Shown: positions 29,553-52,875 of the stretch, piece by piece
Position numbering within the stretch: the first letter of the stretch is position 1
How the letters are laid out: the number at the start of each line of letters is the position of its first letter
DNA from: Flavobacteriia bacterium
GTDB taxonomy: Bacteria; Bacteroidota; Bacteroidia; Flavobacteriales; Flavobacteriaceae
Reading direction: 5' to 3'
Assembly (NCBI GenBank): GCA_011391075.1
Contig: JAABRF010000004.1
Location: 1 to 64,000, forward strand
DNA: 64,000 nucleotides
Position numbers and translations under genes: made by a program
Notes under the pieces: model-generated
What the model was told of the DNA's origin: nothing
Databases searched by the model: none
Seen by the model: the letters and a program-made list of their open reading frames with translations, nothing else

Positions 29553-30821
29553 CTAAAACCTAAGATTTAAACCACTGTAGAGACCTACAGAATAGGGTTT
29601 GAATGCGTTTGTATTGTTAAGTGTATGGGTTTGAATTTTAAACATAGGAACCAAGTTAAAATTCACATTTTTATATACTTTATATTCAAGTTCAACACCT
29701 AAATTACCTGAAAAGTTTAACGAATTTAGGTTGGATGCTTCTCCAACTTTATTTGTAAAATCGGAGGTTTCTACATAGATTTCATTTTTATTGAGCAACA
29801 GTGTACTAAATCCACCTATAATGTTGATTCCCAAATCATCATCTGCATTTAAACGATATTTAGCCTCTAAAGGGATTTCAATATAACCGTAAACTTGAGT
29901 TAAATTTCCTTTTTCGGATAGGTTACTAGATTTACTAAAAGTGGAAGGATTCGTTGAAATGGTACTAATCAAGGATTTAGTATCGTCATAATTGATATTG
30001 GAAAATCGTGAAATAGGGTTGTTTGACGCTAGATAAATATCGTTGGTACTGTATGCAAAATCTACAATATGTACACCCGATTGAATAGAAAATCGTTTGT
30101 TGAATTGATAAGCAACTTGTACACCATATGCAGTCGAGATTTTACCTTGTTTTTCATTTGCATCCATTTGTGAATCGAGTGATGAGGCATCTTTGTTGAA
30201 GCTACTTAAATAAACAGGTGCTGCAACTGTTGATACACTCCAACCTTTATCTGGATTTGCATCCGAATTTGATAACGCTTCTGTTTCTGTTAGAGATTCA
30301 GTTCCAGAATGGTTTTTACTTGAAAAAAGCACCTCTTTTTTATTTGATTTTCCTAAAACAAAATCTTTAGACTGATTATCTACTTTAAAAGGATTATTTG
30401 ATTTAAGTATAGGAAACTTAAGATTAGTTTTAGAATTGGAACTTATCGAATTTGTTTCAAAACTGTCATGATTATTTCCCTTGTTGATAGGGACGGAAAG
30501 CATGTTTTTCAAATTAAAATCGACGTCTGCAGTAGTTTCAGTTTCTGCTTGAGGTTTTAATGGTGTGGAATTTTCATTATCTACCACTGAGTTTTGTTCA
30601 TTAGTTGGAGATAAAAACGAATTAAAAGGATTGTTAAATACAAATAAAAGAGTTAAACCGACTGCAATACCACTGAACCAAATCCACATATTGCGTTGGT
30701 TGGTAACAGGTTTTGGATTCATATTATTTTCAATATGATTCCAAACTCTTTCAGGAGGCAGCGATTCAAAATCTCTGAATTTTTCCTGAAATAAACGATC
30801 TATATTTTTATAATCTTTCAT
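29553..30821 (-). CDS. Trans-envelope protein: anti-sigma-like N-terminus, one TM helix, C-terminal outer-membrane-type barrel
   Basis: The 422-residue protein follows an ECF sigma factor gene by 93 bp. Residues 1-43 are polar and helical (MKDYKNIDRLFQEKFRDFE and PPERVWNHIENNM), one transmembrane helix is at about 45-65 (WIWFSGIAVGLTLLFVF), a low-complexity N/S/T-rich stretch runs to about 200, and the last 220 residues look like an eight-stranded barrel (alternating strands ending GLYSGLNLRF). The layout resembles an anti-sigma factor fused to an OMP_b-brl-type domain, a form seen downstream of ECF sigma genes in Bacteroidota. The N-terminal region probably binds the sigma factor. How one helix and a barrel fit in the envelope is not clear. 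It could also be a periplasmic beta protein. Confidence 0.65.
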   Translation of the reverse strand: MKDYKNIDRLFQEKFRDFESLPPERVWNHIENNMNPKPVTNQRNMWIWFSGIAVGLTLLFVFNNPFNSFLSPTNEQNSVVDNENSTPLKPQAETETTADVDFNLKNMLSVPINKGNNHDSFETNSISSNSKTNLKFPILKSNNPFKVDNQSKDFVLGKSNKKEVLFSSKNHSGTESLTETEALSNSDANPDKGWSVSTVAAPVYLSSFNKDASSLDSQMDANEKQGKISTAYGVQVAYQFNKRFSIQSGVHIVDFAYSTNDIYLASNNPISRFSNINYDDTKSLISTISTNPSTFSKSSNLSEKGNLTQVYGYIEIPLEAKYRLNADDDLGINIIGGFSTLLLNKNEIYVETSDFTNKVGEASNLNSLNFSGNLGVELEYKVYKNVNFNLVPMFKIQTHTLNNTNAFKPYSVGLYSGLNLRF

Positions 30822-30914
30822 GTGTATATAGTAGAATGTTTTTTATTGGTCACATGGAATTCGCTCTAAACATTTTAGCTTGGTGCCAATATTTGTAATG
30901 CTCATTTCATTTTA

Positions 30915-50468: not shown

Positions 50469-50488
50469 AGACAAGGCATGCCTTGTCT
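50469..50488. repeat. 20-bp perfect palindrome
   Basis: AGACAAGGCA and its exact complement TGCCTTGTCT are adjacent. GTAGAGAC-N-GTCTCTAC palindromes of this type recur as dispersed repeats in several bacterial phyla; here the right flank is degenerate. Confidence 0.6.
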
Positions 50489-50536: not shown

Positions 50537-50933
50537 ATGAAATGACCATAAGATAAGCATCATACCAACCGAAATGTTTATTAAGGTCATTCCACTCGCC
50601 TCGCTGCGAAGCGGGTCTGACCATTAAAAATAAATAATTATAAACAGATGAAATGTCCATAAGCAATGTTGCATACCAACCGCAATGTTTATTTGGACAT
50701 TCCATGTGACCAATAAAATCAAATAAAAATAAACAGATGAAATAGCCATAAGATTGACATCATACCAACCGGGAATGATTAAATGGCTATTACACTCGCC
50801 TCGCGAAGCGGGTGTGACCAATAAAAAACAATAAATTTAAACACATGAAATGACCATAAGCAATGTTTCATACCAACCGCAATGTTTATTTGGTCATTCC
50901 ATGTGACCAATAAAAACAAATAAAAATAAACAC
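50537..50933. repeat. Four tandem stem-loop repeat units (89-111 bp)
   Basis: Units begin with ATGAAAT at 50537, 50648, 50737 and 50845 and measure 111, 89, 108 and 89 bp. Each has arms around a loop with CATACCAACCG: AATGACC/GGTCATT (50541-50547, 50585-50591), AATGTCC/GGACATT (50652-50658, 50695-50701), AATAGCC/GGCTATT (50741-50747, 50785-50791) and AATGACC/GGTCATT (50849-50855, 50892-50898). The arms change together, so the stem is preserved. Units 1 and 3 also contain a second GC-rich hairpin (ACTCGC/GCGGGT with a G-T wobble), which is replaced in units 2 and 4 by CCATGTG. Confidence 0.85.
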
Positions 50934-50972
50934 ATGAAATTTATTTTCCAGTTTTATTTAGTGTATTAATGT

Positions 50973-51006: not shown

Positions 51007-52875
51007 ATGAACTTAGTATCCATAGAAAACGTACATAAATCATTTGGAGAACGTGTAATTCTTCATGATATCTCATTTGGAATCAATAAAGACCAAAAAA
51101 TTGCATTTGTTGCTAAAAACGGAACCGGAAAAACCACTTTGCTGAACATAATTGCAGGGAAAGATAGTGCTGATATTGGACAAGTGGTATTCAGAAAAGG
51201 TCTCAAAGTGGCTTATTTATCCCAAAAGATGGATTTAACTCTAGATTTAACCGTTGAAGAAAGTATTTTCAACGCGGACAATCCTATTTTAAAAATTATT
51301 GAAGCTTATGAGCACGCTTTGGAACATCCAGAAGATTCCGAACGTTATCAAAAGGCTTTTGACGAAATGGAATTGCATCATGCATGGGATTTTGAAACCC
51401 AGTACAAACAGATTTTATTCAAATTGAAGTTGGAAAATCTGCATCAAAAGGTAAGTGAGTTATCGGGTGGACAACAAAAAAGATTGGGTTTGGCGATTTG
51501 TTTGCTGATGAATCCCGATTTGTTGATTTTAGATGAACCTACCAATCATTTGGATTTGGAAATGATTGAATGGTTGGAAACATACTTACAGAAAACAAAA
51601 CTCACTTTATTCATGGTTACTCACGACCGATATTTTTTGGAGCGTGTTTGTAATGATATTGTGGAATTGGACGAAGGAATTATCTATCGCTACACGGGAA
51701 ACTATTCTTATTTTTTAGAAAAAAAAGAAGCCAGACTTGCCATTGAACAAGCTACTGTTGATAAAGCCAAAAATCTATATGTAAAAGAATTGGATTGGAT
51801 GCGTAGAATGCCTCAAGCGAGAACGACCAAATCTAAATCTAGAATTGATGCTTTTTATAAAACAGAAGAAGTTGCCAAAAGTCGTAGAAAGGAACATCAG
51901 GTTCAATTGGAAATCAATATGGAACGATTGGGAAGTAAAGTGGTTGAGTTGCATAAAGTTTCCAAATCCTTTGGTGAAAATACCATATTGAAGAGTTTTG
52001 AATATGTGTTTCAACGGGAAGACCGAGTTGGAATTATTGGTAATAATGGAAGTGGAAAAAGTACTTTACTAAACCTCATCACAGGAAGTTTGAAACCCGA
52101 TTCAGGGAAAATAATTATTGGAGACACGGTTAAAATGGGTTATTATACCCAAGAAGGCATCGTAATCAAACCAGGACAAAAAGTATTGGAAGTCATTCGC
52201 GAATTTGGAGAGTATATTCCATTGACTAAAGGTAGGACTTTGAGTGCCGGTAGTTTGTTGGAAAAGTTTTTGTTTGATCGCAAGCAACAATATGATTTTG
52301 TTGAAAAACTGAGTGGCGGAGAATTAAAGAGGTTATTTTTATGTACCGTATTGATTCAAAATCCCAATTTTTTAATTTTGGACGAACCTACGAACGATTT
52401 GGATATTATTACCCTAAATGTTTTAGAAGACTTTTTATTGGATTATCCCGGGACATTAGTTGTCGTATCGCATGATCGATATTTTATGGATAAAATAGTA
52501 GACCATTTATTTGTTTTGAAAGATGGTATCGTTAAGGATTTCCCTGGAAATTACAGTGATTACAGAGATTTTGAAATGTTTACAGAAGAACAAAAAAGAG
52601 AAGATAAATCAGAAATAGCATCCTTTGCAAAAGCTTCTGATGAAGGAAATGCTAAAAAAGTCAAGTTGAGTTATCATGAAAAGAAAGAATTTGAGCAGAT
52701 TGAAAAGGATATTGCAAAATTAAACTTAGAAAAAGCCAAAATTGAATCTGATTTTGTTGAAGCTCGCATTCCGGAAGATCAAATGTATGCCATGGGTAAG
52801 AAATTGGAAGAGATTATTGCTCAAATCAACCAAAAGGAAGAACGATGGTTGGATTTGAGTTTGAAAATGGAATGA
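51007..52875 (+). CDS. ABC-F family ATPase (Uup-like)
   Basis: The 622-residue protein has two ABC nucleotide-binding domains and no transmembrane part. Walker A motifs are KNGTGKTTLL near residue 37 and GNNGSGKSTLL near 345; signature motifs are LSGGQQKR and LSGGELKR; Walker B is LLILDEPTNHLD and FLILDEPTNDLD. A linker (about 240-310) and a C-terminal coiled coil (about 550-622, with EFEQIEKDIAKLNLEKAKIE split by short breaks) match the Uup subgroup. ABC-F proteins act on the ribosome or on DNA-related processes. Length is typical. The gene follows the repeat island. Confidence 0.93.
   Translation: MNLVSIENVHKSFGERVILHDISFGINKDQKIAFVAKNGTGKTTLLNIIAGKDSADIGQVVFRKGLKVAYLSQKMDLTLDLTVEESIFNADNPILKIIEAYEHALEHPEDSERYQKAFDEMELHHAWDFETQYKQILFKLKLENLHQKVSELSGGQQKRLGLAICLLMNPDLLILDEPTNHLDLEMIEWLETYLQKTKLTLFMVTHDRYFLERVCNDIVELDEGIIYRYTGNYSYFLEKKEARLAIEQATVDKAKNLYVKELDWMRRMPQARTTKSKSRIDAFYKTEEVAKSRRKEHQVQLEINMERLGSKVVELHKVSKSFGENTILKSFEYVFQREDRVGIIGNNGSGKSTLLNLITGSLKPDSGKIIIGDTVKMGYYTQEGIVIKPGQKVLEVIREFGEYIPLTKGRTLSAGSLLEKFLFDRKQQYDFVEKLSGGELKRLFLCTVLIQNPNFLILDEPTNDLDIITLNVLEDFLLDYPGTLVVVSHDRYFMDKIVDHLFVLKDGIVKDFPGNYSDYRDFEMFTEEQKREDKSEIASFAKASDEGNAKKVKLSYHEKKEFEQIEKDIAKLNLEKAKIESDFVEARIPEDQMYAMGKKLEEIIAQINQKEERWLDLSLKME

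Follow-up and report, generated by a model that had tools for sequence, protein, structure and literature searches.

Positions 50537–50933 of the window, the whole 64,000-nucleotide stretch of DNA analysed here, hold an array of repeats that are copies of a mobile hairpin family of about 90 nt dispersed across the Bacteroidota. Copies are scattered over different loci, some of these loci also have an allele without the element, and an inserted element has ATGAAA at each of its two junctions. The element probably inserts precisely and in the sense orientation at ATGAAA, chiefly at gene start codons. Its left hairpin and a second helix, formed by CATNTG and CANATG, are kept by compensatory change. 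As far as found, the element has apparently not been described before, and there is a fair chance that it represents a new class of small, structured, non-autonomous mobile element.

The tandem array and its nested hairpins

The four tandem units of 111, 89, 108 and 89 bp that had been predicted from the sequence are present at 50537–50933. They share the loop word CATACCAACCG, and their arms change in step as claimed (AATGACC/GGTCATT, AATGTCC/GGACATT, AATAGCC/GGCTATT, and AATGACC/GGTCATT). With at most one mismatch, the loop word occurs six times in the window, compared with 0.46 expected. Each unit starts with ATGAAAT and ends with AAACAS, and a further ATGAAA closes the array. On the + strand, each unit folds better than its own shuffles (z −2.3 to −4.5). 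The features of the array are as follows, with scores from R2, the full-length covariance model.

50537–50647, + strand: unit 1, long form of 111 nt, starting with ATGAAATGACC and ending with AAACAG
50595–50615, + strand: 21-nt GC-rich hairpin CTCGCCTCGCTGCGAAGCGGG inside unit 1, inserted at CCA^TCTGACC
50648–50736, + strand: unit 2, short form of 89 nt, ending with AAACAG; R2 score of 95.5 bits over 50648–50742
50737–50844, + strand: unit 3, long form of 108 nt, ending with AAACAC
50795–50812, + strand: 18-nt hairpin CTCGCCTCGCGAAGCGGG inside unit 3, at the same insertion point as that of unit 1 by alignment
50845–50933, + strand: unit 4, short form of 89 nt, ending with AAACAC; R2 score of 104.1 bits over 50845–50939
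50900–50905, + strand: internal CATGTG of unit 4, whose partner is the right-end CACATG at 50931–50936
50934–50939, + strand: ATGAAA at the right junction of the array, opening an 11-codon frame only, upstream of the ABC-F ATG at 51007
51007–52875, + strand: downstream gene, an open reading frame for an ABC-F-type ATPase of 622 aa, named by eye from its paired Walker A and ABC signature motifs

The alternation of long and short forms with a period of about 200 bp, also noted in the original prediction, is real: TRF, independently of the unit calls, reports a period of 197 bp with 2 copies and a score of 603. Its cause is a GC-rich hairpin of 18–21 nt in units 1 and 3, placed at one fixed point, which is the main difference from units 2 and 4. 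Orthologous copies in the own genome (G000, contig C24, L002) and in its close relative G003 (contig C106, L201) differ by exactly the 21-nt hairpin CTCGCCTCGCTGCGAAGCGGG at CCA^TCTGACC, and other copies carry different hairpins at or near this point or in the loop. The GC-rich hairpins are second-order insertions, and they account for the ‘long’ forms and the period of about 200 bp. Copies L002 and L201 are otherwise near-identical, and a target duplication is not visible between them; as a side reading, the 21-nt hairpin would be a palindrome that can itself move or be excised, lying inside a larger mobile element. Separately, a second recurrent module, CTGCG..AGCA..ATCAGTGAACTCC ... AAAGTGAA(C/T)T, was observed as an insertion in the A-rich tail at L001:1555-1640, L059:1400-1500, L086, and L082.

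The array lies in the leader of the ABC-F gene, and the ATGAAA at this site is not the gene start, as it opens the 11-codon frame. In the ABC-F leader of G003, the last ~60 nt next to the array point are alignable and lack the element. The ATGAAAT at 50934, previously taken for a truncated fifth unit, actually belongs to the right end of unit 4, as its conserved ATGAAA junction. The array would be the result either of four insertions stacked at one ATGAAA or of tandem duplication of inserted units; in serial stacking, the right-end ATGAAA of each unit would be a fresh target. Just upstream, at 50469–50488, the window contains a perfect palindrome, AGACAAGGCATGCCTTGTCT, of which one more copy was seen among the fetched loci, in G003 (L223).

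Architecture and covariation of the element

From 5′ to 3′, the element consists of ATG, a mismatched A, a 7-bp stem arm, a partly conserved loop of ~36 nt, the opposite arm, a single mismatched base, CATNTG, ACC, ~25 nt rich in A, and CANATG followed by AAA. Among 25 diverse copies, 94.8% of the cells in the two helices are standard pairs, and 41 cells show double changes, compared with 14.4 in shuffles and at most one when the register is slid. The helix covariation is 0.314, compared with at most 0.051 in a slid register. The shuffles keep relatedness, yet the changes recur independently in several subfamilies, which come from different genera. These values uphold the earlier proposal that pairing is under selection. 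Within the stem, positions 7–10 differ in Watson–Crick type among 46 non-redundant copies, a subset of which has a tandem G.A variant (TGAGCC/GGCGA), and position 4 is an A opposite C, A, or G, never T, in all 46. A subfamily with the arms AATGAGCCA/TGGCGAATT (L310, L317, L148, L130, and others) was also observed, in which mid-stem tandem G.A mismatches replace two Watson–Crick pairs.

The second helix is formed by the internal CATNTG and the right-end CANATG, with the covarying types GTG/CAC, CTG/CAG, TTG/CAA, and ATG/CAT. For the two common types, CATGTG goes with CACATG in 37 copies and CATCTG with CAGATG in 24, i.e., 61 of 62 follow the rule (Fisher p 3e-16, uncorrected for relatedness). 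The one crossed copy is unit 2 of the array, in which CATGTG is mismatched with CAGATG, and this suggests recombination between array units. Distant genomes contribute further pairs, CATATG/CATATG, CATTTG/CAAATG, and CATAGG/CCTATG. The fold that had been proposed to compete with the hairpin, between GGTCA of the right arm and a downstream TGACC, is unsupported, since TGACC does not vary with the arms; an alternative pairing, CATNTG with CANATG, does covary.

Dispersal and insertion at gene starts

The unit and its loop word recur on other contigs of G000 and in two of three congeners. With R1, a covariance model of the first stem-loop, and matches counted at E ≤ 0.1, there are 20 matches in G000, 30 in G002, and 28 in G003, and none in the fourth congener, G001. 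R1 matches were found in 55 of the 299 Flavobacteriaceae genomes sampled, and R2 matches in 39 of 395 genomes sampled over the Bacteroidota as a whole, other orders and classes included. Four other genera have 12–25 copies each; one of them has at least 15 copies of equal score, and the five of these that were fetched are identical over the core. Among named genomes, a pattern scan for the stem together with the right end gave matches in Polaribacter sp. SulCav, Flavobacteriaceae SJ88, Sphingobacteriia, Chitinophagaceae, Prolixibacteraceae, and other Bacteroidia MAGs. The element was not seen in the viral contigs, phages, or plasmids searched. In G001, the congener without the full element, three loci (L044, L064, and L068) carry a right-end-like GTGACCATTAAA...AAACACATGAAA before ATGAAA.

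A fifth copy in the window, outside the array, is placed exactly at a gene start:

30816–30910, − strand: fifth copy, made up of the element (30822–30910) and the gene-start ATGAAA; R2 score of 67.7 bits; exactly at the start of the open reading frame 29556–30821; the site is empty in G003

This copy directly follows the stop of an upstream frame that, by inspection only, resembles a sigma-factor C-terminus. Its empty site in G003 (site C49b) reads ...CAATAATAAA|ATGAAAGATTA... where the window has the 89-bp insertion at 30822–30910, and the flanks are 99% identical. At site C35, the empty allele of G003, ...ACATACAC|ATGAAACATCT... corresponds to a double unit of 219 bp, with flanks 94% identical. 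These are the only two fully alignable empty sites, both being G003 alleles. At a third gene start, G000 (C71) is free and G003 (C50) is occupied, with diverged upstream DNA. As a source of empty sites, G001 was discarded, being ~72% identical with unalignable intergenic regions. The empty sites and the multiple copies in the own genome and its relatives bear out the suggestion that the units derive from a mobile element. The original interpretation is partly supported: the units are not confined to a single locus and their arms do covary, but the competing TGACC fold and the truncated fifth unit find no support. To this are added start-codon targeting, the second covarying right-end helix, and the conserved mismatch, which were absent from it.

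After insertion, ATGAAA stands at both junctions, and at the right end 69 of 73 elements have AAA directly behind the ATG. In a few copies the gene start is other than ATGAAA, with AGA, AAT, or CAT after the ATG, and the left junction is still ATGAAA or ATGACA; the left AAA therefore appears to belong to the element. The cut site would lie somewhere within the shared ATG, and for ATGAAA the target, element end, and duplication are inseparable. Of 58 family-level copies, 48 have a right-end ATG that opens an open reading frame of 60 codons or more, compared with a background of 22% over every ATGAAA in these loci. At the genus level this holds for 24 of 45, many of the others being internal junctions of tandem arrays, and some copies adjoin an ATGAAA that opens no gene. 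Part of the start-codon enrichment may come from selective removal of within-gene insertions. The targets include fabG, lpxB, serC, proC, the formate–THF ligase gene (Fhs), and trpD within a trp operon. Among the dozens sampled, the downstream genes are functionally unrelated, and no set of related genes conserved across genera, as a regulon would be, was found; orthologous occupancy was seen only for a trkA-like gene, within the genus.

After insertion, the frame of the original, displaced ATG is ATG AAA TGA, ATG AAA TAG, or ATG AAA NNN CCA TAA/TGA, and in 80 of 94 frames the resulting mini-ORF is 2 or 4 codons long. The gene with the insertion keeps an intact ATGAAA start at the right end of the element, behind an A-rich leader that the element brings. 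From the nature of the target genes, we infer that they are still expressed after insertion. Insertions at the starts of fabG, lpxB, and others are proposed to persist because the A-rich right end permits translation. At one copy (L127:1501-1589), the upstream frame is 29 codons long and ends in a TGA that shares bases with the ATG downstream (ATGA), resembling translational coupling.

Possible mechanism, known systems and rival explanations

The best reading of these data is a non-autonomous, start-codon-targeting element, a reading that we consider likely, and one that probably moves as single-strand DNA. In such a mechanism, one strand of the element would fold and expose both cleavage sites. 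The internal TTNCATNTG is a putative guide that would pair with the left ATGAAA or the right-end CANATGAAA, and the target ATGAAA would be picked by the same TTNCATNTG pairing. Transposition would be of the single-strand HUH/Y1 type, IS200/IS605-like, with the enzyme supplied in trans, and the A-rich right end would keep the target gene translatable. Like IS200/IS605 and its non-autonomous derivatives, the element has a folded hairpin with a conserved unpaired base near the end, an internal short sequence pairing with the end (here the CATNTG/CANATG covariation, with a putative role in cleavage), a short fixed target at the junction (ATGAAA) without variable target duplication, and directional insertion without terminal inverted repeats. 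Unlike them, it is only ~90 nt long, would use one guide, 3′ of the hairpin, for both ends, and has the start codon ATGAAA as its target. Its cognate Y1 gene was not found, and the IS200 copies examined carry other end sequences. No Y1 gene flanked by element ends was found; we therefore liken the mechanism to that of IS200/IS605 without assigning the element to the family.

Within 1.5 kb of 60 Y1/REP-transposase loci the element is absent, and a few copies lie kilobases away. With the own genome 68% complete, the failure to find a mobiliser carries little weight. Y1 genes are commoner in element-positive genomes (30 of 55, compared with 104 of 299), an association that is weak and may be confounded by phylogeny. 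An IS200 class 1.1-like Y1 is associated with the element (29 genomes have this Y1, and the element is present in 12; p 0.002), but those of its IS copies that were read, some only, have other end sequences. Subclass 1.2-like Y1 was rejected as the mobiliser, as it shows no association: the element is present in 8 of 30 genomes with it (p 0.16), and the genomes richest in copies are without it. A broken subclass 1.2-type transposase, 39% identical to that of G184, was observed in G002 (C28:137872-138243, L419); none was found in G000.

Several families of small repeats offer further comparisons. MITEs are also short, non-autonomous, and dispersed, with empty sites seen, but terminal inverted repeats (at least 8 of 10 matches) are present in 0 of 73 elements, whose ends are direct ATGAAA copies. 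The integron attC core sites RYYYAAC and GTTRRRY occur in only 2 and 6 of the 73. Rickettsia palindromic elements (RPEs) are small mobile palindromes within coding frames that coexist with gene function. The present element is likewise a small mobile palindrome compatible with gene function; unlike RPEs, it lies at start codons and leaves the protein unchanged. The Rfam Bacteroidota RNAs, e.g., Flavo-1, a Flavobacteria motif, are similarly structured elements of Flavobacteria-like genomes. No Rfam family was detected at threshold on the array or on nine loci with relatives, and a relaxed threshold gave chance-level matches only. In the open-access literature, no description of such an element was found, subscription papers being mostly outside the search.

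REP/REPIN sequences with RAYT transposases resemble the element in being small, multi-copy, and structured, with genome-specific subfamilies and tandem or composite arrangements. They differ in that the GT[AG]G foot is present in 0 of 73 elements, that the element is not adjacent to RAYT genes and inserts at start codons in one orientation, and that the local RAYTs come with other palindromes. A REP/RAYT identity was rejected on account of the foot, the flanking, and the cognate palindromes. The element could still be an atypical REP that belongs to a REP transposase of the Bacteroidota (RAYT group 5/TnpA_REP subclass 2.6), given that Quentin et al. (2018, PMC6006769), in the closest published account found, describe atypical structures lacking GT[AG]G in the vicinity of subclass 2.6 genes of Bacteroidetes, that G000 encodes one RAYT-like gene with the YIHNNP motif, and that RAYT genes co-occur with the element (32 of 55 genomes, compared with 121 of 299; p 0.003). 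This is improbable, however, as the G000 gene is followed by two copies of another palindrome, CCCTTTCAGAGTTTGAAACTCTGAAAGGG, the RAYT of another element-bearing genome sits among ACCTCACAGGTTTTGAAAACCTGTGAGGT copies, the element is not adjacent to the RAYT genes examined, and 23 of the 55 element-positive genomes are without a RAYT match. The two genes in question, in G000 (L285:6670-7470, contig C20, 206 aa) and at L287, are REP-transposase-like, and CCCTTTCAGAGTTTGAAACTCTGAAAGGG and ACCTCACAGGTTTTGAAAACCTGTGAGGT are probably their cognate REPs.

The helices might instead be selected as RNA, the element being a dispersed 5′-UTR regulator whose CAUNUG masks the upstream AUG or the downstream start as a translational switch or attenuator, with mobility incidental. 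A functional RNA would give identical covarying helices, and the sense orientation of copies immediately before start codons, the downstream AUG within a covarying helix, the common stop of the mini-ORF, and the conserved loop sequences all agree with this. We consider it rather unlikely, because the downstream genes are unrelated, an orthologous regulon was not seen except for the trkA-like gene within the genus, there is no Rfam match, and some genus-level copies stand at an ATGAAA without a gene, though many short-frame ends are array junctions. Insertion into mRNA at AUGAAA, in a manner like reverse splicing, followed by reverse transcription is highly improbable for an element of ~90 nt with neither a group I/II intron-like core nor an Rfam match, and non-genic ATGAAA insertions also exist; it would account for sense-only insertion at a translation signal and for a guide-like pairing reminiscent of EBS/IBS. 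Passive tandem duplication or recombination of an ordinary palindromic repeat, with no transposition, would produce tandem arrays and mosaic units such as unit 2, where CATGTG is found with CAGATG, but it is extremely unlikely in view of the precise ATGAAA insertion in unrelated loci and the identical architecture phylum-wide.

Taking the transposable-element reading further, we tentatively suggest, as a possibility short of our favoured view, an undescribed, phylum-wide class of Bacteroidota elements that finds start codons through base pairing (TTNCATNTG with ATGAAA), re-supplies the initiation region, is tolerable at essential genes, and uses new or unrecognised machinery. With two helices that covary and a mismatch that is conserved, the mechanism lends itself to direct tests. 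If true, a start-codon target reached by base pairing would be an unusual way to insert harmlessly in dense bacterial genomes. The element would supply new 5′ leaders and upstream mini-ORFs across the Bacteroidota, which bears on gene-start annotation and expression studies.
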